Shown: piece after piece, positions 1,992-12,558 of the stretch
Position numbering within the stretch: the stretch's first letter is position 1
Layout of the letters: every line of letters starts with the position of its first letter
DNA from: Chloroflexota bacterium
GTDB lineage: Bacteria > Chloroflexota > Ktedonobacteria > Ktedonobacterales > Ktedonobacteraceae
DNA length: 12,597 bases
Direction: 5' to 3'
NCBI GenBank assembly: GCA_005881495.1
Contig: VBHI01000048.1
Span: 1-12,597, forward strand
The notes under the pieces: model-generated
Databases searched by the model: none
The model's input: the letters and a program-made list of their open reading frames with translations, nothing else
What the model was told of the DNA's origin: nothing
Program-made: the position numbers and the translations under genes

Positions 1992-3920
1992 CTATTCTGG
2001 CAAGTTCGGACAGGTCTTGCGATATGGCTCCTCGCCAAGGTACTGCTGCCATTCTGCTGGTGTGAGGTTGCGGGTCAGGCGCGCTTGAGCTTCTATGAGC
2101 AAGTCTTCCGACCGCCAGAGCCATAATCGTGCGATGCCATCCATGCTTGCCGTAGCCAGGTATTTCCCATCGGGACTGAAGGCCACGCCATTCACGCTAT
2201 CCCTGTGAGGCAGGTAAGCGCATTGGCGACCACTGGCAATCTCCCATACTCCTGTAGTATGGTCATCACTTGCTGTGGCTAGATACTTGCCGTCGGGACT
2301 GAATGCAATAGCGCTTACACTCTCATCATGAGTGAAGCGAGCAATTTGTTTACCGCTGCTCGTCTCCCAGACTCTGGCAGTATGGTCTTTGCTTGCGGTG
2401 GCTACGAGGGTATCCGTAGGCGATATCCCCGCGGGGCTGAATGCTACGGACCACACTTTACTCTTATGGGGCAGGCGGAAGAGTTCGCGACCGCTGCTCG
2501 TCTCCCATATTTTGGCAGTATGGTCCCAGCTTGCGGTGGCAAGGTAGTGCCCATCAGGACTGAAGACTACCTTGTTCACGATCAGCTTGTGGGGCAGATA
2601 AGCCATGTGGCGACCAGTGGCCGTCTCCCACAAACAGGCATTCGTATCGTTGCTAGCCGTAGCGAGGTAACGCCCATCGGGACAGAATGCTACAGCATTC
2701 ACCGTATCATTGTGAGATAGGCTGAAAAGTAACCGGCCACTTGCAGTTTCCCAGACCTTGGCGGTCTTGTCGTTGCTGGCCGTAGCGAGATAGCGCCCAT
2801 CGGGACTGAAGGCCAGGTCATTCACATTCCTTTTATGAGCCATGCGAACGGATTGGCTACCGGCTACTGTCTCCCATAATCCTACCATGCCGTCCCCGCT
2901 TCCTGTAGCGAGGTAGCGCCCATCGGGGCTGAATGCGGCTGCCCATACTCTACTCCCGCAGGAGAGCTGAAGGTGGCGATAACCACCCTTCACCTCCCAG
3001 ATGCCTGCGGTACCATCCTCACTTCCCGTAGCCAGGTAGCTCCCGTCGGAGCTGAATGCGACTGTGCTTACTCTCCTCTTGTGAGTCAGTCGGCCAGAAA
3101 TGATCTCCCACATGCCAGTGCTGCCATTCTCACTTGCAGTTGCCAGGTAGCGCCCATCCGGACTGAACGCGATATTACGTAGGTAGTCCCCATCCTTGTA
3201 GTCGACGTCTTTATGCGGCAGGCAAATGAGCTGGTAACCGCTCTCTGTCTCCCAGACGCCCACCGTACGGTCAGCGCTGGTTGTTGCCAGGTAGCGCCCA
3301 TCTGAGCTGAAGACAATGGCATTCACGCTCCCCTGGTGATTCATACGTGTGACCTGCCGACCACTGCTTGTCTCCCATACGCGAGCAGTATGATCCTGGC
3401 TTGCGGTGGCAATAGAGCTGCCATCTGGATGAAAGGTCAGAGCGTTCACAGGGTACTCGTGAGGGAGCAAAGTGGGCTGTGAGCTACTATCTGGCCTCCA
3501 CAGCCATAGTCGTACATAACAGTCGTCGCTTGCCGTAGCCAGGTAATATCCATCTGGACTGAACGCTAAAGCAGACACACTTCTCTCGTGATTCAAGCGG
3601 GCGACCTGGCGCGCGCTTATCGTTTCCCACACGCGAGCAGTGCCATCCACACTTGCCGTGGCAAGGTAACGGCCATCTGAACTGAAGGTAACGGCTCGTA
3701 TCAGGCCTTCGTGAGCCAGCCGACCAAGGGCGCGATTCGTGACTACTTCCCAGGCCCACGCGATACCCTCTGCACTGCCACCACTCGTCGTAACGAGATA
3801 ATGTGCGTCTCGACTGAGCAGAACGCTCTTCACGTTACTGCCATTGAACAGGCGAGCGACCTGGCGACCACTACTGGTTTCCCATACGCGAACGGTTGAA
3901 TACGTCCCATATCTCCACAT
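1992..3920 (-). CDS. WD40-repeat array, out-of-frame C-terminal part of the trypsin-nSTAND1-WD40 protein
   Basis: A 642-residue reading frame made almost entirely of WD40 repeats. I count 14 units of about 42 residues (residues 28-602), each of the form V.A.AFSPDGRYLATAS-D-VWE. The first is degenerate, and the twelfth carries a five-residue insertion (residues 496-506). That is enough for two seven-bladed propellers. The tail (about 608-640) has the LTRNLT...EEPYRKTCPNLP signature I associate with the C-terminus of nSTAND1-WD40 proteins. The frame opens at an ATG inside the upstream protease-NTPase gene, with only a weak purine-rich stretch (GAGAGA) before it and a 50-nt overlap. Its first residues (STVRVWETSSGRQ) are the second half of a WD40 repeat whose first half ends the upstream frame. 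It is therefore most simply the downstream part of one frameshifted gene. Translational coupling as a separate subunit remains possible. Confidence 0.85.
   Translation of the reverse strand: MWRYGTYSTVRVWETSSGRQVARLFNGSNVKSVLLSRDAHYLVTTSGGSAEGIAWAWEVVTNRALGRLAHEGLIRAVTFSSDGRYLATASVDGTARVWETISARQVARLNHERSVSALAFSPDGYYLATASDDCYVRLWLWRPDSSSQPTLLPHEYPVNALTFHPDGSSIATASQDHTARVWETSSGRQVTRMNHQGSVNAIVFSSDGRYLATTSADRTVGVWETESGYQLICLPHKDVDYKDGDYLRNIAFSPDGRYLATASENGSTGMWEIISGRLTHKRRVSTVAFSSDGSYLATGSEDGTAGIWEVKGGYRHLQLSCGSRVWAAAFSPDGRYLATGSGDGMVGLWETVAGSQSVRMAHKRNVNDLAFSPDGRYLATASNDKTAKVWETASGRLLFSLSHNDTVNAVAFCPDGRYLATASNDTNACLWETATGRHMAYLPHKLIVNKVVFSPDGHYLATASWDHTAKIWETSSGRELFRLPHKSKVWSVAFSPAGISPTDTLVATASKDHTARVWETSSGKQIARFTHDESVSAIAFSPDGKYLATASDDHTTGVWEIASGRQCAYLPHRDSVNGVAFSPDGKYLATASMDGIARLWLWRSEDLLIEAQARLTRNLTPAEWQQYLGEEPYRKTCPNLPE
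2100..3900 (-). repeat. Tandem WD40-coding repeats, about 126-bp period
   Basis: The DNA encoding the WD40 units is itself repetitive. Blocks such as GTAGCGAGGTAGCGCCCATC recur with few changes (for example near 2660, 2784 and 2908). The similarity at nucleotide level goes beyond what the protein motif requires, which suggests recent duplication or gene conversion between units. Confidence 0.7.
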
Positions 3921-6267
3921 TGCTGTCTCTCGTTGCTATAACCAGGTAGCGTCCATCCGAACTAAGAGCTAGAGCAGTCAGATCTCCCCTCGGAGCCAGG
4001 CGGGTGATGGGAAGAGGCAACAGACTTAAACCGGAACGCAGAGCCTGGTCCGCTTCCAGGGAAGACGATCGTTGTAGAGCTTCTATGGCGAGCAACACAC
4101 TTCTCTGGAGCAGATGGCCCTGCTGGCCTCGCAGCAGCTCTGCTTGCGCAGTCAACTGGCGAGCTAAAGCGATACGCCGCTGCCGCTCAGCCTCTGCACG
4201 CTGTTTCTCGGCTTCTTCACGCTGTCGTATGGCCTCCTGCCGTTGCTTCTCAGCTTCTTCACGTTGGCGAACGGCTTCCTGGCGCTGTTGCTCCACCTTT
4301 TCGTAGAGCGCTTTCCAGCGCAAATCCTCTCGGTTCTGCTGCTCTCGGCTCGTCTTGATGAATTTTTGCTCCACCTCGCTCAAATCGGCGGCTCGCAGAT
4401 CCATCCAGCCTTCGGACTCTGAGAGACTGCTCCTCCGGAGTAAACTATCGATATAGCGGGTTTCATTCGGATTAGTCTCTACCCATGCCTGGGCGCGTCT
4501 CTCAAGCTCTTGATGCCAGCGCAGGAAAGGTTCATCTCTTTTCAACCACCACTTCAGCAATCCCCATTCGCGCAGCAGTGCATCATGGATGATCTCTACA
4601 GTCACTTCGTTGCTCGATGGGTCATAACTCGTCACAAGCAAACGGGCATCCACCAATCGTCGTACCAGCTTATACATGTCTTCCCGTTCGTCTTCATTGG
4701 GGTAGAGCGACTTCAAGGTCCTCCGTCTACGAGTATCGGGAAGGTCTTCGTTCTCATTGCCCAGGTAGACCAGGTTGCTAAAAATGCGGGATGCAAGCTG
4801 CTTTTTGAACTCATCTTCCAGGCTATTGAATGTTTGATCGGCCCATTGTCTCAGCCCACCTGTCACCCCACCGACTTTCTCGTAAGCTTTAAAGGTTAAT
4901 ACTCCATCTTCCCGCCGTTCGCAAAGCTCGGTCAGGGCAAACTCAAGCAGAGGCAGAATGGCGCAACGTCCAACTCGTCCTCCCTCATCAGAGGTTTCCC
5001 TTTCTATTGAATCTTCAACAATCTCCTCGGCCAGGCCTTCCTCAAAACGCAGTCCAACGACTCTGGCAGGTTCCTGCACGATGGTAACCAGTTCATCCCA
5101 TTGTAGTGTCGGAGATACATGTATCAGGCCACCATTCTGCTCTAGGCGTTGCGCCAACTTCACATGCTGTGCGAAGTGCGTGTAGAAATCGTCACGCATG
5201 ATCGCGATCGCTGTGATCGGCAAATTGGCATCCAGTAACGCTGTCAACTGCGCCAGAAAATCCTGGCTCATTTCTTCAGGACAATTCACCAGCAGTTCCT
5301 CGAACTGATCGAGAATGAGGACGATCTGTGGGTGCTCTGGATGCTGGTTCAGCCATTCGCGTACGGCTTGGGTCAGATTGTTTGATTCGGTTGCCAATCC
5401 TTGTACTGCTAGTTGTTGGAAAGGATTATCAGCCGGGCGAGTGAGCATTATTTGCCAGCGATCACTACCCGGCAGTACCCCATTGCGTAGCTGGGTAATA
5501 AGTCCGGCTTGCACAATAGATGACTTACCACTACCCGATGGCCCCAGTATCAGCAGGAAGCGAGGATCGAGTCGAAGTTTATTCACCAGCCTGTCCACTT
5601 CCTGCTTGCGACCAAAGAAGAACTTCGCCTGGGCCTCGGTAAATGGATTCAGACCATGATAGGGATTAATATCGGGTATTTGCAGATCAGTGCAAACTCT
5701 CTGCAAGGTTTCCGTAGGGGTAGCAAAGGCGGTCTCTCCCATTTTCCCACTGGCGTCGGGTGTGGCAACCATCACGGCCATGCCTATGACCCGCCGTCGC
5801 AACTCGTCCCACACAGGAGCGCCACTAAAGCCTTTGGTGATTTCACTTGAGCGTATCTGGAGTAGGGGTTGTCCTGCCTTGGTTTGTGACCCTCGCCCAA
5901 GTACCTTGCCATACCCAGCTATACCTTCCACTTCGCCTGCACTGGGAAATCCAAAAGTGCTGACCTTGTGGCCGCTTACTCCTGTAGAGGAACCCAGGGG
6001 AAGTGATCTCACCCCTTGAGGCAGGCCACCTGGTACCCGCAGGATAGCCAAATCTTCAGCCTCTACATCTCGCCACCACTGCATTTCTACGGTAGCTTCG
6101 CGCTGCTCATTGGTAGCAAGGAAAATAACGCTTACCCTCTCAGGACAAGGCCTGCCCAGAACGTGAGCGCACGTAACTAACAAGCCATCGTCGGAAACCA
6201 CAAAGCCAGTTCCAACCGACCTACCACTCAGGATACGGACGATGCCAGCATTTAAATCTTCAGACAA
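3871..6267 (-). CDS. Trypsin-like protease / nSTAND1 NTPase fusion (WD40 part out of frame)
   Basis: A 798-residue multidomain protein. Residues 1-195 are a trypsin-like serine protease with His35 (TCAHV), Asp72 (DLAIL) and Ser148 (GFSGAP), so the triad is complete. Residues 207-570 are an nSTAND1-type P-loop NTPase: the entry motif NPF...FFGR, Walker A GPSGSGKSS (242-250) and Walker B VLILDQFEE (316-324), followed by a helical/winged-helix section. Residues 636-705 form a Gln/Arg/Glu-rich coiled coil, and a first WD40 repeat begins at about 762. The frame then stops 10 residues after IWD, and the remaining WD40 array continues in another frame. The start is a TTG five bases after GGAGGT. There is no signal peptide or membrane segment, so it is probably cytoplasmic. 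Related proteins are thought to act as NTP-gated sensors that release a protease effector in biological conflict. That role is inferred here. Confidence 0.9.
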   Translation of the reverse strand: MSEDLNAGIVRILSGRSVGTGFVVSDDGLLVTCAHVLGRPCPERVSVIFLATNEQREATVEMQWWRDVEAEDLAILRVPGGLPQGVRSLPLGSSTGVSGHKVSTFGFPSAGEVEGIAGYGKVLGRGSQTKAGQPLLQIRSSEITKGFSGAPVWDELRRRVIGMAVMVATPDASGKMGETAFATPTETLQRVCTDLQIPDINPYHGLNPFTEAQAKFFFGRKQEVDRLVNKLRLDPRFLLILGPSGSGKSSIVQAGLITQLRNGVLPGSDRWQIMLTRPADNPFQQLAVQGLATESNNLTQAVREWLNQHPEHPQIVLILDQFEELLVNCPEEMSQDFLAQLTALLDANLPITAIAIMRDDFYTHFAQHVKLAQRLEQNGGLIHVSPTLQWDELVTIVQEPARVVGLRFEEGLAEEIVEDSIERETSDEGGRVGRCAILPLLEFALTELCERREDGVLTFKAYEKVGGVTGGLRQWADQTFNSLEDEFKKQLASRIFSNLVYLGNENEDLPDTRRRRTLKSLYPNEDEREDMYKLVRRLVDARLLVTSYDPSSNEVTVEIIHDALLREWGLLKWWLKRDEPFLRWHQELERRAQAWVETNPNETRYIDSLLRRSSLSESEGWMDLRAADLSEVEQKFIKTSREQQNREDLRWKALYEKVEQQRQEAVRQREEAEKQRQEAIRQREEAEKQRAEAERQRRIALARQLTAQAELLRGQQGHLLQRSVLLAIEALQRSSSLEADQALRSGLSLLPLPITRLAPRGDLTALALSSDGRYLVIATRDSNVEIWDVFNRSRMGNQ
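3880..3911 (-). repeat. TATGGGA direct repeat, 25-bp offset, at the frame break
   Basis: Two identical 7-bp copies (minus-strand TATGGGA) lie at 3905-3911 and 3880-3886, exactly 25 bp apart. Each falls on a WD40 Trp codon: IWD in the upstream frame and VWE in the downstream frame. Collapsing one 25-bp unit would join the two frames as VEIWETSSGRQ, a normal repeat. Confidence 0.75.
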
Positions 6268-6349
6268 GGCGCACCTCCGGGCTTTGCAGCGCTCTCCTCA
6301 GCGTTTAGAGGTAGCGAAGGAAGGCCCACTCCTACAGGTACGTGATACA

Positions 6350-6676
6350 TTACTGTTTCGCTGGTTGCCATTTTAAGGTTACTTTGTAGTTGGCCTCAGC
6401 CATGACTTTAGCTATTACCGCACCGAATTCCCCACTCATGTTAAATCCGAACTCCATTTCGATCTCGTCAGGTCGATGGGTCAGGGCTTGCAGTTTAGTA
6501 ATGACGCTTTCAGTTGAAGTTCTAATTGTGTCTAGAGACTGCTCGAAGGTCTGCTTTGCTTCATCTACCATGTCATCAGAGCGGGAGACACGAACAGTGC
6601 CACTCGTCTCCGGTTCGTCTACCTCTACTACGATGAAGTTGCCATCTGCTAACGGGAATTTCACCAGGCGTTTCAT
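6350..6676 (-). CDS. Trypsin-co-occurring domain 1 (Trypco1 / CU044_2847 family) protein
   Basis: A 108-residue protein recognised as the Trypco1/CU044_2847 family. It has an N-terminal beta section (GNFIVVEVDE, 12-21), a central helix (about 36-64), and the characteristic C-terminal block with EFGFNMSGEFGAVIAK (75-90) and a final VTLKW (99-103). This family is named for lying next to trypsin-like protease genes in predicted NTP-dependent conflict systems. Here it sits 82 bp upstream of the trypsin-nSTAND1 gene on the same strand. It may be a substrate, inhibitor or adaptor of the protease; its biochemical role is not known. The ATG is preceded by AAGGAGGT with a five-base spacer, and a promoter lies directly upstream. 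It is probably the first gene of the operon. Confidence 0.85.
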   Translation of the reverse strand: MKRLVKFPLADGNFIVVEVDEPETSGTVRVSRSDDMVDEAKQTFEQSLDTIRTSTESVITKLQALTHRPDEIEMEFGFNMSGEFGAVIAKVMAEANYKVTLKWQPAKQ

Positions 6677-6874: not shown

Positions 6875-7465
6875 TTAGTTTGTTTGTGCCTCAGCAGCAT
6901 GCTGGGTCTGGCGGGTCGCCTTCTGCGCTGCTGCTACGCTCTCTCGCGCGCTATTTTGCACGAACTCTCCTCCTCGCCTCGCTGCCGCTGTGACAGCCTC
7001 TAACGTCTCCTGGTAGTAGGAAAAGGGGGCTGTCAGGAAGTCGACGTACGCGGTGAAGGACCCACTCACCAGTGCCTGGAAAGCTTCTTGCTGCTTGCGC
7101 GACTGCTCAACCAGGGTTTGCACCAGGTCCCGCGTGCCCTCTGCATGGGCCTTGAGCACGTCGGACCCGTTCTGAAGAATGCTCTGAGCATACTTCACAT
7201 TCCGCTCCTGGGCTGCAAGAGCCGTGTTGACCACCGTCTGAAAAGCTGCTTGCAGTTGCTGAGGCTGCTCTGCCAGCTCTTGTGTCAGATGCCGGCTGTC
7301 TTCGGCATAGCTTTTGAGGACCTCAATGCCGTTCTCCAGCGTACTCTGGGCGAACTGCATATTCCGCTCCTGGACCGCAGTTGCACTCTTGACGATGGCC
7401 TGGTTCGCCTCTTGAACGGATGTTGTCAGACGCTGTGTCGCCTCATTTACGGTATTTTTCGCCAC
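6875..7465 (-). CDS. Phasin-like helical protein with three 54-residue repeats
   Basis: A 196-residue, Ala/Gln-rich protein predicted to be nearly all helix, with no signal peptide or membrane segment. It consists of three related units offset by 54 residues. QERN recurs at 32-35 and 86-89, each followed by a (Y/F)AQS and NG..VLK pattern. The third unit (from AFQ at 128) is divergent and more hydrophobic, with LTAPFSYYQETLEAV (144-158), reminiscent of phasin_2-type proteins. Its place just downstream of a PhaQ-like repressor matches the phaP-phaQ pairing of Bacillus, so I infer a PHA granule-coat protein. Another amphipathic coiled-coil protein is possible. The start is a GTG eight bases after AGAAGG. 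The gene ends in a clear terminator. Confidence 0.7.
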   Translation of the reverse strand: MAKNTVNEATQRLTTSVQEANQAIVKSATAVQERNMQFAQSTLENGIEVLKSYAEDSRHLTQELAEQPQQLQAAFQTVVNTALAAQERNVKYAQSILQNGSDVLKAHAEGTRDLVQTLVEQSRKQQEAFQALVSGSFTAYVDFLTAPFSYYQETLEAVTAAARRGGEFVQNSARESVAAAQKATRQTQHAAEAQTN

Positions 7466-7577: not shown

Positions 7578-7970
7578 CTACTGATCCTGATTGTCCTTCT
7601 TGGAGGATTGACCTGTATACAGCTGGAAGAATGTGTCCATCATCTTCTGGTAGTGATCCTGAGATTGTGCCCAGAACTGCAGATAAGCTTCGCCCGCTTC
7701 AGTGATAGAGTAGATACGCCGGGCTGGTCCTGCCTCCGAGGTGTCCCACCTGGAATGCACCATCCCGTTTTTCTCCATCTGTCGCAGCGTCCGGTAGAAT
7801 GTGCCCGGGTTCATTGCAGCTAATCCGAATGTCGCCATCTTCTCCATCAATTCATAGCCGTAGGAACTCCACTCCCGCAGCATCAAGAGAACAATGGGAA
7901 CGAGCCAGTTCCTGGACCTTGCGTCAGTTGCCACATTGCGTGGCTCTTTCACTCTATTTTGCTCAGCCAT
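7578..7970 (-). CDS. phaQ: PadR-family repressor, PhaQ-like (PHB-responsive)
   Basis: A 130-residue DNA-binding protein. The PadR winged helix runs from about 21 to 95: NWLVPIVLLMLREW, then SSYGYELMEK, the recognition-helix region NPGTFYRTLRQMEKNGM (54-70), and the wing with GPARRIYSIT (81-90). The C-terminal dimerisation helix includes WAQSQDHYQKMMDTFFQLY (100-118). The WSSYGYEL and DTS..GPA.RIYSIT features match my memory of PhaQ, the poly-beta-hydroxybutyrate-responsive PadR repressor of Bacillus. It lies 112 bp upstream of a phasin-like gene, the same neighbourhood as phaQ-phaP. PhaQ represses phasin expression until PHA is present. Its own promoter carries tandem copies of a 14-bp motif, so autoregulation is likely. 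The ATG follows AGGTG at a five-base distance. Confidence 0.82.
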   Translation of the reverse strand: MAEQNRVKEPRNVATDARSRNWLVPIVLLMLREWSSYGYELMEKMATFGLAAMNPGTFYRTLRQMEKNGMVHSRWDTSEAGPARRIYSITEAGEAYLQFWAQSQDHYQKMMDTFFQLYTGQSSKKDNQDQ

Positions 7971-7973
7971 ATC

Positions 7974-8067
7974 GCACCTATATGCATCTAGTTACGTATC
8001 TGCTTACTATCTTTTGAATTAGAAAAGCATCTATATGCATATTACACTTATATGCAATGTTTGTCAA
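7974..8067 (-). promoter_or_regulatory. Promoter and tandem operators of the PadR gene
   Basis: On the minus strand, a perfect -35 TTGACA (8067-8062), a 17-bp spacer and TAATAT (8044-8039) precede the PadR gene. Three copies of a 14-bp motif (minus strand WTGCATATARRTGY) lie at 8057-8044, 8040-8027 and 7987-7974. The first two are 17 bp apart and overlap the spacer and -10. The third lies close to the ribosome site. The first pair also contains a perfect dyad, TGCATAT-N7-ATATGCA. Confidence 0.7.
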
Positions 8068-8090
8068 GGGCTTTTCTAACATTTCCTCCC

Positions 8091-8120
8091 AATTGGGGGA
8101 AATCGATAAAAATTGGGGGA
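8091..8120. repeat. Paired AATTGGGGGA direct repeats
   Basis: Two identical 10-bp copies begin 20 bp apart (8091-8100 and 8111-8120), directly after the ANTAR regulator stop codon. The first copy also forms a CCCAATTGGG palindrome. No T-run follows on the minus strand, so this is not a clear intrinsic terminator. Confidence 0.45.
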
Positions 8121-8125
8121 CTTCC

Positions 8126-8707
8126 TCAACTTGCTGACATATCGTTGGCCAGCAGGATTGCCTCCGCTACTACTCGCATAGACTTGCGACTGTCCATGCT
8201 CGCCTTGCGGATCTTACGAAAGGCTTCCTGCTCGGTAAGGCCTCTCTCGATGAGAAGACCCTTGGCACGCTCAATGATCTTGCGGCTTTCCAGTTGTTCG
8301 GTGAGGCTCTCTACTTGCTCCTCCAGGGTACGTAACGCCTGGTAGCGTGCCAGAGTCACCTCAATTGCCGGAATAACCTCACATTCACGCAGTGGCTTGA
8401 TCAGATAGTTGACAACGCCTGCAGCTTTGACGCCTGCAACGAGAGGCGGGTCGACGAATGCCGTGAGCATCACTACTGGTGCAATCTTCTCCTGCATCAG
8501 GGCTTCAGCAATGGCTATGCTATCCCCATCGGGCAATTGCATGTCCATTAAGACCAGATCTGGTCGTATCTGACGGGCAAGATTGAGAGCAGTGCGTCCA
8601 TCCCCTGCCTCACCAACGACGAGATACCCCTTTTTGGTCAGACTCGCTTTTTCGTTGATGCGCTGAACAGCATCGTTATCCACAAGAAGGATACGCGTGG
8701 GCATCAT
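8126..8707 (-). CDS. Response regulator with ANTAR RNA-binding output domain
   Basis: A 193-residue protein. Residues 4-120 are a CheY-like receiver with the acidic pocket (Asp10, Asp12), phosphoacceptor Asp55 in LVLMDMQLPD, Thr82 and Lys104. A short coiled coil (about 123-142) leads into an ANTAR domain (about 135-187), with the ERAKGLLIERGLTEQEAF (146-163) signature and SM..VAEAIL near the end. ANTAR proteins bind paired hexaloop hairpins in nascent RNA and prevent termination. No histidine kinase gene lies in the window, so it is an orphan here. I chose the ATG at 8707, which follows AGGAGG with a four-base spacer; a second ATG comes directly after. An in-frame start 45 bases upstream has no ribosome site. 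The gene lies 88 bp after the 62-residue gene and probably shares its promoter. Confidence 0.92.
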   Translation of the reverse strand: MMPTRILLVDNDAVQRINEKASLTKKGYLVVGEAGDGRTALNLARQIRPDLVLMDMQLPDGDSIAIAEALMQEKIAPVVMLTAFVDPPLVAGVKAAGVVNYLIKPLRECEVIPAIEVTLARYQALRTLEEQVESLTEQLESRKIIERAKGLLIERGLTEQEAFRKIRKASMDSRKSMRVVAEAILLANDMSAS

Positions 8708-8795
8708 ATCACCTCCTACGGTTGGTCTACCCTGGCAGGCCTCGAGTATCATTGCGTGTAGAGGACCCGCTTCACAGATATGTAATGTGGGTTGC

Positions 8796-8984
8796 TTAAG
8801 CTGTCTGCTCGGTCAGCTTCCCGGTCGACACAAGCCAACGCACAAACTCAAGGCGACGATAGGTTTCAGACATGTGACTATACTTGTTTTCAGCGTAATC
8901 TTGCCGGAGTCTCTCTAAGCGCTCAATTTCTGACGCGGTGAACCCGGCCTTGTATAACATCTCATAGGTTTCTATGTGATCCAT
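8796..8984 (-). CDS. Uncharacterised 62-residue protein
   Basis: A small, charged, helical protein that I do not recognise. It begins MDHIETYEMLYKAGFT, continues with an Arg/Glu/Leu-rich helix (SEIERLERLRQDY, about 18-30) and ends with RLEFVRWLVSTGKLTEQ. There is no signal peptide, membrane segment or cysteine. The start is well supported: the ATG at 8984 follows AGGAGG with a five-base spacer. A longer in-frame version beginning at 9035 lacks a ribosome site. It is the first gene after a strong promoter carrying the same tandem motif as the PadR promoter, and it precedes the ANTAR regulator. It may belong to the PHA regulon. A partner or modulator role is speculation. Confidence 0.72.
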   Translation of the reverse strand: MDHIETYEMLYKAGFTASEIERLERLRQDYAENKYSHMSETYRRLEFVRWLVSTGKLTEQTA

Positions 8985-9053
8985 GGTATCCTCCTGTTTG
9001 GCACCGGAGCCATATATGTCACTGCACCTTTGCATGCTGTTTATTTTGAATAA

Positions 9054-9094
9054 GCACCTATATACATTTTACATCTATATGCAATATTTGTCAA
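9054..9094 (-). promoter_or_regulatory. Promoter and tandem operators of the 62-residue protein / ANTAR unit
   Basis: On the minus strand, a perfect -35 TTGACA (9094-9089), a 17-bp spacer and TAAAAT (9071-9066) give a strong promoter about 75 nt before the start codon. Two copies of the same 14-bp motif seen at the PadR promoter (9084-9071 and 9067-9054) are again 17 bp apart, overlapping the spacer and -10. The whole block is nearly superimposable on 8027-8067. Confidence 0.7.
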
Positions 9095-9104
9095 GAGGCA
9101 TGCT

Positions 9105-9264
9105 GGTTGTCACCCTTGCAGCTGCCCCGGTTGTCACCCTGAGCGTAGCGAAGGGTCTCTCTCCTTGGGCAGTGAGATGCTTCGCGGAGTTGACACTGAG
9201 CGGAGCGAATGTGCTCAGCATGACAGGAGGGCACTCAGCATGACAGGACTTCGCTCAGTATGAA
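9105..9264. repeat. Interspersed CTGAGCG/CTCAGCATGACA repeat cluster
   Basis: This non-coding stretch holds GGTTGTCACCCT twice (9105-9116, 9129-9140) and CTCAGCATGACAGGA twice (9214-9228, 9234-9248). It also has several CTGAGCG.AGCGAA cores and their reverse (TTCGCTCAG near 9250). CTGAGC (9196-9201) can pair with GCTCAG (9213-9218). The pattern resembles intergenic repeat families seen in Chloroflexota and other bacteria. I see no gene or further structure from 9265 to about 9400. Confidence 0.65.
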
Positions 9265-9401
9265 ATATTTTGGCTGTCACACCAGGGGATGTAATCTAAA
9301 GGGAACACCGCTCCGAGGAGGACTGACTGGTAGTAAAGGGCAATGGTGGCGATGATTGGGAGAAGAAAAGGACTGATGCTGCGCGATTCCGAATGTGCTG
9401 G

Positions 9402-9487: not shown

Positions 9488-10234
9488 TTAGATGTATACC
9501 CCACCATTGATACTGATCGCTTGCGCCGTCATGTAGTCCCCTTCCGTGACAATATAGCGAACACACGTGGCAATTTCTTCAGGCTTGCCAAAGCGACCCA
9601 TGGGGATTTTATCAAGAATGCGCTGACGGATCTTCTCTGGTACTTCCTGAAGCATGTCAGTTTCGGTGAAGCCTGGGCAAACTGCGTTCACAGTAATGCC
9701 ATGACGTGAGACTTCGAGCGCGATTGAATTCGTAAAGCCGATGATGCCTGCTTTGGTCGCGGCATAGTTCGATTGCCCGACGTTGCCGGCCATGGCCACA
9801 AATGAACTAATGTTCACGACCCTGCCATACTTACGATCTAACATGTAGGGGAGTACTAGCTTTGTACAGTTGAAGAGACTACCAAGGTTGACATTGACTA
9901 CTTCGTCCCAGTGATCCTTGGTCATGTTTTTGAGTGTCTTGTCACGAGTAATGCCTGCATTGTTGACTAAAATATCGATCTGTCCAAAAGTCACGATGGT
10001 CTTCTTGACCATCTCAGCCACCTGATCATACTCGGTAACATCAGCCTGAACTATCAGAGCCCTTGGCCCAAGTTCCGTGATCTCATCCGCTAGTTCCCGG
10101 GCAGCTTCCGCGCTCGTGATGTAATTGATGACGATGTTGGCACCTGTTGCCGCTAGTTCTTTGGCAATAGCTCGACCAATACCACGCCCCGCTCCAGTGA
10201 CGATTGCTGTCTGGCCATCTAGTCGCTTACTCAA
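9488..10234 (-). CDS. Short-chain reductase, acetoacetyl-CoA/3-oxoacyl-ACP reductase (PhaB/FabG-like)
   Basis: A 248-residue classical short-chain dehydrogenase/reductase. It has the cofactor motif TGAGRGIG (13-20), NNAG (91-94), Asn116, catalytic Ser144, and Tyr157 with Lys161 in YAATK. The C-terminus INGGVYI resembles PhaB/FabG proteins, and the length is typical. The expected reaction is NADPH-dependent reduction of a 3-oxoacyl thioester to the (R)-3-hydroxyacyl form, which would supply PHA synthesis or fatty-acid synthesis. The PHA-type neighbours favour PhaB, but the sequence alone does not settle it. I chose the TTG at 10234, eight bases after AAGGAG. The ATG at 10267 has no ribosome site and would add 11 atypical residues. 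It has its own promoter, a long leader and a strong hairpin after the stop, so it is probably monocistronic. Confidence 0.88.
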   Translation of the reverse strand: MSKRLDGQTAIVTGAGRGIGRAIAKELAATGANIVINYITSAEAARELADEITELGPRALIVQADVTEYDQVAEMVKKTIVTFGQIDILVNNAGITRDKTLKNMTKDHWDEVVNVNLGSLFNCTKLVLPYMLDRKYGRVVNISSFVAMAGNVGQSNYAATKAGIIGFTNSIALEVSRHGITVNAVCPGFTETDMLQEVPEKIRQRILDKIPMGRFGKPEEIATCVRYIVTEGDYMTAQAISINGGVYI

Positions 10235-10322
10235 TTGTCGATCTCCTTTCAATAGTTGCCAGGGCATGAACTACAATATTCAACTGCGTACAATTCCTTA
10301 CTACTTTGTTTTCAATGTTGAG

Positions 10323-10519: not shown

Positions 10520-12130
10520 CTACGGCGCGCCCTTCTCCGTCTCTGCGAGCGAGGCGTAGGTGTCGCGCAGTTCACGCTTGAGGATCTTCCCACTCGCATT
10601 CTTTGGGAGCTTGTCGACAATCACGACGTATTTAGGCGTCTTGTAGCCGGCGAGCCGCTCCCGGCAGAAAGCGATGAGTTCTTCTTCGGTGGCGGTTTGC
10701 CCTGTGCGAAGTATCACGGCGGCGACCGCCGCTTCGACCCACCGCTGGTGCGGCACGCCGAAGACCGCAACCTCGGCGACCGCGGGGTGGGCGTAGAAGG
10801 CCTCTTCCACCTCGCGGCTGGCCACATTCTCCCCGCCGGTCTTGATCATGTCTTTCTTGCGGTCAACCACGTAGAGGTAGCCCTCTTCGTCGATGACTCC
10901 GAGGTCACCGGAATGGAACCAGCCGTTCCGAAACGCCTCCGCAGTCTTCTCCGGGTCGTTCCAGTAGCCGAGCATGATGTGCGGGCTACGGTGCACGATC
11001 TCGCCCTCTGTGCCTGGGGGGACGGGGCGGTCGTCGTTGTCGACGATGATCGTCTCGACGTTGACGCCCGGCCGCCCGGCCGACCCGGGTTTGCGGGCCT
11101 GGTCCTCGGGTGCAAGCACGGTCGCCACAGGCGCCATCTCGGTCTGGCCGTAAAAGTTGAACAGCCGCACGTTGGGCAGCCGGCGGCTCATCTCCTTGAG
11201 CACCTCCACCGGCATCACCGACGCACCGTAGTAGCCCTTAGCAAGCGAGGACAGGTCGCGGGCGTCGAAGTCGGGGTGGCGCAGCAGCCCGATCCACACG
11301 GTTGGAGGGCAGAACAGCTTGGTCGCTCGCTCCTTCTCGATGGCGGCAAGGATCGCCGCGGGATCGGGGCCGGGCAGGGTGATGTTGGTGGCGCCGAGAT
11401 AGATGCCGGGGGTAAGGAAACAGTGCAGTTGGGCACTGTGGTACAACGGCATGGAGTGGATCTCGACGTCGTTGACGCTCATCTGCCCATCGACGATGCA
11501 GCTGACGTACTGCGCGATCAGGCTGCGGCCGGACAGTATAGCGCCCTTCGGCCGAGTCTCGGTGCCGCTGGTGTAGAGCAACTGCAGCGGGTCGTCGTCG
11601 GCGAGCGTGACATCGGGGGCGGTGGCGTCAGGGTGCTCCATCCAGGTCTGCAGCGATTCCCAGCCGCCAGGGGTGCCGGTGCCGTGCTCGCCGATCACTC
11701 CGCGCACCCGCACTGATCGTTCAGCGCCAGCGGCCTCGATCGTCAACTTGGCTGTTGTCAGCAGCGTGTCCTCGACGATCATCCCAGTTGCGCCAGCGTG
11801 GCCCAGGATGTAGGCGACTTCGGTGGGGCCCAACATGAAGTTGATTGGCACCGAGATCGCACCGAGCCGGGCGAGCGCGAAGTACGCGACGACGAAACTG
11901 TGGTTGTTGTGTGACAGCAACGCTATGCGATCACCCTTTTGCACGCCGCGTTCGGTGAGCGCATTGGCCGTCCGGTTGACGAGCTTGTCGAGCTCGGCGT
12001 AGGTTTGCCGCAGTTGCCCGTAGACGATCGCGGTCTTGCTGGGGAAGCGGGCTGCGGTGCGCCACAGCAGGTCACCAATGTTGTGGCGGCGGGTGCGAGC
12101 GATGGTGGCAATGAGTGCGTTGTCGTACAT
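10520..12130 (-). CDS. AMP-forming acyl-CoA synthetase (FadD-like, ANL superfamily)
   Basis: A 536-residue adenylate-forming enzyme that would activate a carboxylic acid with ATP and then load CoA. Seen motifs: P-loop YTSGTETRPKG (186-196; the usual TGxPKG is changed to ETRPKG), YGQTE (327-331), SGDLG with Asp409, DRKKD with Arg423, TGGENV (431-436), and the C-terminal catalytic Lys515 in NASGK. Length and motifs match medium/long-chain acyl-CoA ligases; the substrate cannot be told from sequence. The ATG at 12130 is preceded by AAGGAGGAG, whereas the 118 residues possible upstream are low-complexity and read into repeats. GC content and codon use are visibly higher than in neighbouring genes, suggesting acquisition, perhaps from an actinobacterium (inference). 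It may feed acyl-CoA to the adjacent reductase, but a separate promoter for the reductase argues against one operon. Confidence 0.92.
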   Translation of the reverse strand: MYDNALIATIARTRRHNIGDLLWRTAARFPSKTAIVYGQLRQTYAELDKLVNRTANALTERGVQKGDRIALLSHNNHSFVVAYFALARLGAISVPINFMLGPTEVAYILGHAGATGMIVEDTLLTTAKLTIEAAGAERSVRVRGVIGEHGTGTPGGWESLQTWMEHPDATAPDVTLADDDPLQLLYTSGTETRPKGAILSGRSLIAQYVSCIVDGQMSVNDVEIHSMPLYHSAQLHCFLTPGIYLGATNITLPGPDPAAILAAIEKERATKLFCPPTVWIGLLRHPDFDARDLSSLAKGYYGASVMPVEVLKEMSRRLPNVRLFNFYGQTEMAPVATVLAPEDQARKPGSAGRPGVNVETIIVDNDDRPVPPGTEGEIVHRSPHIMLGYWNDPEKTAEAFRNGWFHSGDLGVIDEEGYLYVVDRKKDMIKTGGENVASREVEEAFYAHPAVAEVAVFGVPHQRWVEAAVAAVILRTGQTATEEELIAFCRERLAGYKTPKYVVIVDKLPKNASGKILKRELRDTYASLAETEKGAP

Positions 12131-12227
12131 GATACTGTTCTCCTCCTTCGTTCTTTTCCCTTGTGAACATATACGTTTCGTTCTCACCTCGCGCATTGAC
12201 GAGCTTTTCACTCGTTGCGTAATTAAA

Positions 12228-12256
12228 ATTCTACTACGCTCCGGCGGCTTCTTCAA
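12228..12256 (-). promoter_or_regulatory. Promoter of the acyl-CoA synthetase gene
   Basis: On the minus strand TTGAAG (12256-12251), a 17-bp spacer and TAGAAT (12233-12228) lie about 90 nt upstream of the ATG. The match is five of six at -10 and four of six at -35. Confidence 0.45.
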
Positions 12257-12308
12257 GTGCAGCCAGCAGCATTCATAATGCCAGCAAGGGCACATATTAC
12301 TCCGACTG

Positions 12309-12558
12309 GCCCTGTGGGTCCTCTCAAGGGTAGGTATTTTGTGAAACGAGCAGGGAAGCGGCTTCGCCTCGTAGGGGCGGAGGTGGCAGGGAAGTAGGGT
12401 GGGGACCCTTGGGTCGCCCTGCGTCCTGTTCCCCTGCCGCTTCGCCCCTGCCCCCCATGGGCGACGCAAGCGTCCCCACTCCACTGCGCCCCTCTCCCGC
12501 CCCTACGATTGTGACGATCTGCCCCAAAAAAACCTACTGTTGAAAGCCCTGTGGGTCC
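12309..12558. repeat. Nested inverted-repeat element (MITE-like), non-coding
   Basis: The 13-bp sequence GCCCTGTGGGTCC occurs at both edges (12309-12321 and 12546-12558). Inside are CGTAGGGGCGG (12370-12380) and its exact complement (12497-12507), plus 21-bp inner arms (12399-12419 and 12459-12479) that pair at 19 positions. A looser TAGGT/ACCTA pair lies outside the 11-bp arms. The short reading frames here are GC-rich artefacts. This fills most of the gene-free stretch upstream of the acyl-CoA synthetase; I see nothing further from 12559 to 12597. Confidence 0.6.

Follow-up and report, generated by a model that had tools for sequence, protein, structure and literature searches.

A dyad operator at the promoters of a PhaQ-type PadR repressor gene and of a small-protein gene suggests a PhaQ regulon with a new target in Ktedonobacterales

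A PhaQ-type PadR repressor encoded in a 12,597-nucleotide stretch of a Chloroflexota genome (family Ktedonobacteraceae, contig VBHI01000048.1; hereafter, the window) very likely controls two promoters, its own and that of a gene for a 62-residue protein, through a dyad that covers the spacer, the -10 element, and the start region of both. We assign this reading, which is based on sequence comparison, a probability of about 0.83. It is drawn from the presence of the dyad at the phaQ promoters of relatives and of Priestia and from the co-occurrence of the dyad with PhaQ. The sequence-only reading of the window had proposed a small regulon under one regulator, and the sites in relatives together with the co-occurrence uphold this idea, with PadR/PhaQ itself most likely the regulator of the repressor gene, a phasin gene, and an extra unit. 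The most fitting description of the circuit is that of a PhaQ regulon that includes a small-protein target, with the ANTAR regulator encoded behind the small protein apparently added in this lineage; the module is a known one, of the PhaQ kind, with a new target. The relevant features of the window are as follows.

6875..7465, minus strand: phasin, 196 aa, second gene of the phaQ unit (PF09361)
7578..7970, minus strand: PadR-family repressor of the PhaQ type, 130 aa (PF03551, TIGR02719)
7974..7987, minus strand: solitary half-site overlapping the AGGTG Shine-Dalgarno sequence of padR, read from the sequence, without a second arm at the right spacing
8027..8055, minus strand: putative operator 1, of the phaQ-phasin promoter, 29 bp, core dyad 8032-8050, with aligned sites in six other phaQ promoters
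8039..8067, minus strand: predicted sigma-70-type promoter of padR/phaQ (TTGACA 8067-8062, 17 bp, TAATAT 8044-8039)
8126..8707, minus strand: response regulator with receiver and ANTAR domains, 193 aa from an ATG behind GGAGG (PF00072, PF03861)
8796..8984, minus strand: small protein of 62 aa, with an AGGAGG ribosome-binding site
9054..9082, minus strand: putative operator 2, of the 62-residue/ANTAR promoter, 29 bp, core dyad 9059-9077, with counterparts in genomes G046 and G047
9066..9094, minus strand: predicted sigma-70-type promoter of the 62-residue gene (TTGACA 9094-9089, 17 bp, TAAAAT 9071-9066)
9488..10267, minus strand: acetoacetyl-CoA/3-oxoacyl reductase (PhaB/FabG-like), 81% identical to the reductase beside phaC in genome G022
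10520..12484, minus strand: acyl-CoA synthetase

Transcription of the minus strand runs from the acyl-CoA synthetase gene through those of the PhaB/FabG-type reductase, the 62-residue ORF, the ANTAR response regulator, and PadR to the phasin gene. The PadR protein scored 69 bits against PF03551, well over the Pfam gathering score of 27, and 138.9 bits against the PhaQ equivalog model TIGR02719, 0.45 bit short of the curated cutoff of 139.35; it is classed here as PhaQ type rather than as a certified member of the equivalog. The cutoff is exceeded by the relatives of the protein in G022 (76% identical; 142.8 bits) and G047 (72%; 145.8 bits). In named genome contigs, two PadR relatives were found, both from Ktedonobacterales. 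The phasin barely passed PF09361 (Phasin_2; 25 bits versus a cutoff of 24.9), and both domains of the ANTAR regulator lay above their cutoffs (PF00072, 69.8 bits; PF03861, 72 bits); the start of its gene at 8707 is the probable one, judging from the sequence and from relatives of 193 aa. The PadR gene adjoins the phasin gene and shares the window with the PhaB/FabG-like reductase gene, which is a sign of a PHA locus. Around the PhaQ orthologue of G022, phaC and phasin genes are present, and a PhaE-like ORF there scores only below the cutoff. In the phylogenetic tree, the window PadR grouped with the PhaQ proteins of G001, G002, G022, and G047 at 100/98; the deeper forks were weak with long branches, and Priestia PhaQ was not set apart from PadR paralogues by a strongly supported split. 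Elsewhere in the window, positions 1992-6676 of the minus strand encode a Trypco1 (trypsin-co-occurring domain) protein followed by a trypsin-like/nSTAND1 protein, the WD40 part of which runs on in another frame (ORF 3871-6267 overlaps ORF 1992-3920); this locus resembles a conflict-system gene split by an apparent frameshift.

The earlier claim of five copies of a 14-bp motif was correct in the number of sites, but only four of them, all on the minus strand, are exact copies of WTGCATATARRTGY (7974-7987, 8027-8040, 8044-8057, and 9071-9084), the remaining one being ATGTATATAGGTGC with one mismatch at 9054-9067. The 17-bp distance within each pair, the equal placement of the pairs over the spacer and -10 element of both promoters, extending to the start region, and the perfect TTGACA at both were confirmed by the motif positions and by inspection of the promoters. 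A copy near the PadR start codon is likewise present, at 7974; it is an isolated half-site, and a role for it is not supported. In the whole window, the 14-mer WTGCATATARRTGY was not enriched at three mismatches (10 found versus 7.3 expected). The two promoter blocks, 8025-8068 and 9052-9095, agree in 38 of 44 bases (86%), and the five other best same-strand 44-mer pairs listed all fell within the WD40-repeat ORF 1992-3920. Just upstream of the 62-residue promoter, at 9100-9265, lies an interspersed repeat of the GTCACCCTGAGCG.AGCGAAGGGTCTC type. When up to two mismatches are allowed, it has 17 copies in G046, 6 in G047, and none in G022, G001, and G002; a similar-looking palindrome is found in the phaQ leader of G047.

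The conserved unit across relatives, as far as aligned sequences tell, is one inverted repeat, TANRTGYA-N3-TRCAYNTA, within an operator of 29 bp, and not the 14-bp direct repeat that had been suggested as the operator. In the window alone, both symmetries score about alike (inverted, 8/11 and 7/11; direct, 9/12 at both sites), and the direct-repeat appearance arises because each half holds a near-palindromic ATGCAT. The direct-repeat model was rejected, the inverted symmetry being kept in distant PhaQ loci. Sixteen operators from the window and from G001, G002, G011, G014, G017, G022, G046, and G047 were aligned; they share the 29 bp, and almost all have a TTGACW and a -10 element resembling TAAAAT (the exceptions are G014, with TAGACA, and G017, in its -10 element). 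Conservation is best in the right half, TGTAAAATGCATATAGATG. A phasin site in G022 forms a perfect inverted repeat, its 11-bp arms separated by 7 bp. Sites from more distant Chloroflexota have diverged in the flanks but still contain the core TANRTGYA-N3-TRCAYNTA, e.g., as TATGTGTA-ACT-TACACATA in G303 and as TAGGTGTA-ATC-TACACCTA in G291. Within the window, the dyad TANRTGYANNNTRCAYNTA is exact at 8032-8050 and has one mismatch at 9059-9077; a scan at up to two mismatches gave two sites versus 0.27 expected, a number reached by 5 of 200 shuffles. A PadR dimer is expected to bind such a dyad.

The PhaQ-phaP system of Bacillus (Priestia) megaterium, reportedly described by Lee et al. in 2004, offers a direct comparison. 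Both phaRBC and the divergently oriented phaQ and phaP lie on a plasmid of Priestia megaterium; in the phaQ promoter there, TTGACA is followed by TAGGTGTAAATTACACATA, and the site after TTGACA, CATCTAGGTGTAAATTACACATATAG, fits the dyad exactly, so that an operator at the own promoter is common to Priestia phaQ and the window PadR gene. Both systems have a gene for a PadR-type repressor followed by a phasin gene on one strand, a PHA locus, and the dyad over the phaQ promoter. Unlike Priestia, the window, which belongs to a different phylum, has a second operator before the genes for the 62-residue protein and the ANTAR regulator, and several Chloroflexota genomes give the phasin gene its own copy of the operator instead of a place behind phaQ. 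Two reviews (PMC9049629, PMC8390425) describe PhaQ of P. megaterium as a negative regulator of phaQ and phaP, which share a single transcript, and as interacting with PHB. Outside Lee et al. 2004, weak literature searches, one of which misses most PHA papers, listed neither a PhaQ operator nor a PhaQ-ANTAR link.

Close relatives of the PadR/PhaQ protein are encoded in 7 of the 47 genomes of the class, and when up to one mismatch was allowed, the paired site was present in 6 of these 7 versus none of the 40 others (p = 6.5e-7). At two mismatches, it also appeared in G014, which has PhaQ, at two sites in G046, which lacks a PhaQ match, and once each in four other genomes of the non-PhaQ group. 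The site stands upstream of the PhaQ-type gene in all seven PhaQ-bearing class genomes, in G047 cut by the contig end. In a phylum set of 400 genomes that includes the 47, PhaQ was defined as a match to TIGR02719 at E ≤1e-25, which 19 genomes contained (over the curated cutoff in 6). The exact dyad occurred in 13 of these 19 versus 16 of the 381 without PhaQ (p = 1.6e-12), and the association was seen both outside the class (7 of 12 versus 7 of 341; p = 1.9e-8) and inside it (6 of 7 versus 9 of 40; p = 0.003). The reversed pattern, used as a control, was found in 22 of the 400 genomes, one of them with PhaQ, and showed no link (p = 1). Phasin homologues occur in 9 of the 47 class genomes, namely, the seven with PhaQ as well as G045 and G046, the latter of which has three exact dyads and no PhaQ match.

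An upstream survey covered 23 PhaQ-like loci, i.e., the window, 21 loci from Chloroflexota, and Priestia. Fifteen of them have an upstream dyad that deviates from the consensus in no more than one of 14 positions, and 0 or 1 of 200 shuffles did as well; since the consensus was drawn after these loci had been viewed, this count is not blind, and the phylum-wide scan is less exposed to that effect. G047, whose contig ends inside the matching site, is the sixteenth locus. No dyad within one mismatch was found upstream of the other seven (G134a, G134b, G169a, G169b, G239, G262, and G344), of which G134b, G169b, G262, and G344 rank with the weakest family matches. G169a is over the family cutoff, yet it has only a three-mismatch site, and in G134 the dyad lies at a neighbouring PHA promoter. 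In four genomes (G253, G291, G303, and G353), the TTGAC-like element near the dyad is directed not at phaQ but at the gene on the far side, which is where G353 has a weak phasin match.

The genes preceded by the operator were surveyed in the 19 PhaQ-bearing genomes and in G046 (20 genomes, 25 exact dyads), with neighbours partly read by eye. Eleven dyads lie upstream of phaQ and five at phasin genes, and operators at phasin promoters were found in five genomes. Two dyads precede the 62-residue gene and two precede rsfS, in both cases in G046 and G047. A further one, in G134, lies between a sub-threshold phasin/PhaE-like ORF preceding phaC and a phasin-like ORF; another, in G353, between a second PadR-like ORF and a phasin-like ORF, as read by eye, the latter without a significant Pfam match; and a third, in G022, before a MaoC-type hydratase gene. 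To the last two dyads, in G300 and G022, no neighbour was assigned. A motif scattered genome-wide, which the sequence-only reading had named as evidence against its model, is not what the relatives contain: each of the 20 genomes has 0 to 4 exact dyads, and 21 of the 25 stand beside phaQ, phasin, other PHA genes, or the 62-residue gene. The rsfS dyads (ribosome silencing factor; L166 3377-3395 and L167 3394-3412) are exact, of the PhaQ type, and ~35-40 bp before the gene in G046 and G047, and they may mark an additional target or else be a chance site passed on by descent. In G022 (L072 6012-7041), the operator lies between a granule-protein-like ORF, recognized by eye, and the gene for the MaoC-type hydratase, which is possibly a PhaJ under PhaQ control.

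Two other explanations of the shared promoter architecture were considered. A recent duplication of a strong promoter, or a particular sigma-factor type, could account for the similarity with no repressor behind it, and in fact the -35 and -10 elements belong to the conserved block and the sites sit exactly over the promoters. This origin is nevertheless very improbable, as the conservation passes the -10 element into the inverted repeat, the dyad core recurs in distant genomes with differing flanks, four of which have the -35-like element on the other side, and the exact dyads, of which each of the 20 genomes has 0 to 4, follow the occurrence of PhaQ in the phylum. Hardly more credible is the view that the operator is that of a different regulator, with its gene close to PHA genes, and that PhaQ is one of its targets. 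Against it stand the co-occurrence with PhaQ itself, the site upstream of phaQ in 7 of 7 class genomes having PhaQ, and the same dyad at phaQ of Priestia, which is described as autoregulated in the review PMC9049629; in favor of this view, PadR paralogues exist (10 PadR-family matches in G022), G046 has sites without a PhaQ match, and binding and repression by the window PadR at both operators are predictions. Control of both promoters by the PhaQ-type repressor is the preferred reading.

The extra target common to the window and two other genomes, as judged from their loci, is the 62-residue protein and not the ANTAR regulator. In all three (the window, G046, and G047), the operator stands before its gene, and a leader of some 55 to 60 bases is common to them. 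The first 26 residues of the homologue in G046 differ, and in G047 the coding start is about 210 bp from the operator; the unit is thus evolving. Downstream of the gene, G046 has a fructose-bisphosphatase gene, and in G047 the next annotated neighbour, on the opposite strand, encodes an integrase. The protein belongs to no known family: DUF896/YnzC, the name that one source gives to some relatives, was not borne out, PF05979 being matched by 1 of 33 members of the 62-residue family with an E value of 0.05. Its predicted structure consists of helices 2-12 and 17-53 (mean pLDDT, 80.6; pTM, 0.40), and the top hit by sequence in the PDB, which covers 23 residues with an E value of 0.018, was taken as chance. 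Elsewhere in the class, homologues have receiver-domain genes within about 1.5 kb in 25 of 30 loci (neighbours were grouped by single linkage and Pfam was checked on a few examples), which makes a working tie between the 62-residue protein and response regulators plausible. In 17 of the 30 loci (L015-L040), a gene grouped with ECF sigma factors is also nearby, and the three genes apparently form a widespread, unnamed signalling cassette of the class. An ANTAR-bound RNA leader before the 62-residue gene was considered and rejected; the leader is conserved in three loci, with folding not clearly better than that of shuffles (z scores of -1.0, +1.5, and -0.1). No Rfam family matches the window, and neither a scan of viral-contig proteins for further 62-residue relatives nor a promoter-pattern scan for other contigs with the gene gave any hit.

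As the linked partner of PhaQ, the ANTAR regulator did not hold up beyond the window: in G046 and G047, the operator precedes the 62-residue gene, and no ANTAR gene is present in the 9 to 12 kb read. By the loci compared, the ANTAR part of the circuit is a lineage-specific addition that follows the 62-residue gene only in the window; among 30 ANTAR loci (about 3.5 kb each) taken from 46 genomes with a match, none contains a 62-residue homologue. The protein resembles NasT, AmiR, and PdtaR in combining receiver and ANTAR domains. Unlike that set, it is a copy only 64 to 69% identical to 29 class orthologues, which average about 90% identity among themselves, and it therefore looks like a second, divergent copy. 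Among the matches listed, none in the 47 class genomes exceeds 69% identity, and 26 of 120 database proteins are 70 to 97% identical over at least 96% of the length. A relative of the 62-residue protein (P0016) and one of the ANTAR copy (P0058) each stem from a 1995-base contig of the same source; this could be the same gene pair elsewhere, and the agreement could also be due to chance.

Whether the second promoter serves only the 62-residue protein, with the ANTAR gene as an unrelated neighbour under its own control, has to be weighed separately; we consider this a substantial possibility but lean against it. The genomes in which the operator precedes the 62-residue gene without ANTAR, the 88 bp between the two genes in the window, and the lack of a class match above 69% among those listed speak for such independence. 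The two genes are, however, on the same strand, no promoter-like or terminator-like site was found between them, and the proximity of 62-residue homologues to receiver-domain genes in 25 of 30 loci makes a functional tie plausible. Joint transcription of the ANTAR gene with the 62-residue gene under the PhaQ-type repressor is thus inferred for the window from its gene layout.

In the proposed mechanism, a dimer of the PhaQ-type PadR protein (7578-7970) would bind the dyad TANRTGYA-N3-TRCAYNTA, extended to 29 bp, and because the dyad spans the spacer, the -10 element, and the start region, the bound repressor should shut RNA polymerase out. At operator 1, this would result in autoregulation of PhaQ and control of the co-directional phasin gene, and at operator 2 the 62-residue protein, plus the ANTAR regulator behind it in this lineage, would come under the same PhaQ control. 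When PHA granules form, PhaQ would be titrated onto the polymer, and both units would be switched on. PHA is the presumed signal of the window PadR by analogy with its family, and the titration is carried over from Priestia by homology. The phenolic-acid PadR operator is ATGT-N8-ACAT; the window system shares with it the PadR family and a dyad operator but differs in the half-site spacing, here RTGY-N5-RCAY, and in the signal. PhaR of Cupriavidus (AniA type) is a PHB/granule-binding repressor of phasin genes, and the logic of a granule-binding phasin repressor would be the same here. PhaR and PhaQ differ in amino acid sequence and cis-acting element, as stated in the review PMC9049629.

The PHA granule state, read by PhaQ, might be passed on to RNA-level control via the 62-residue protein and the second copy of an ANTAR antiterminator, a tentative idea that we regard as somewhat doubtful; if true, transcripts would be retuned by the storage polymer, with an RNA-binding regulator and the small protein as its partner in between. 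The dyad provides a concrete cis element for PhaQ-type repressors that is common to Chloroflexota and Priestia, which makes PhaQ regulons predictable by sequence. In three related genomes, it names an uncharacterised 62-residue protein as a putative target beside the phasin, and this protein is a new candidate component of bioplastic storage or of the signalling connected with it.
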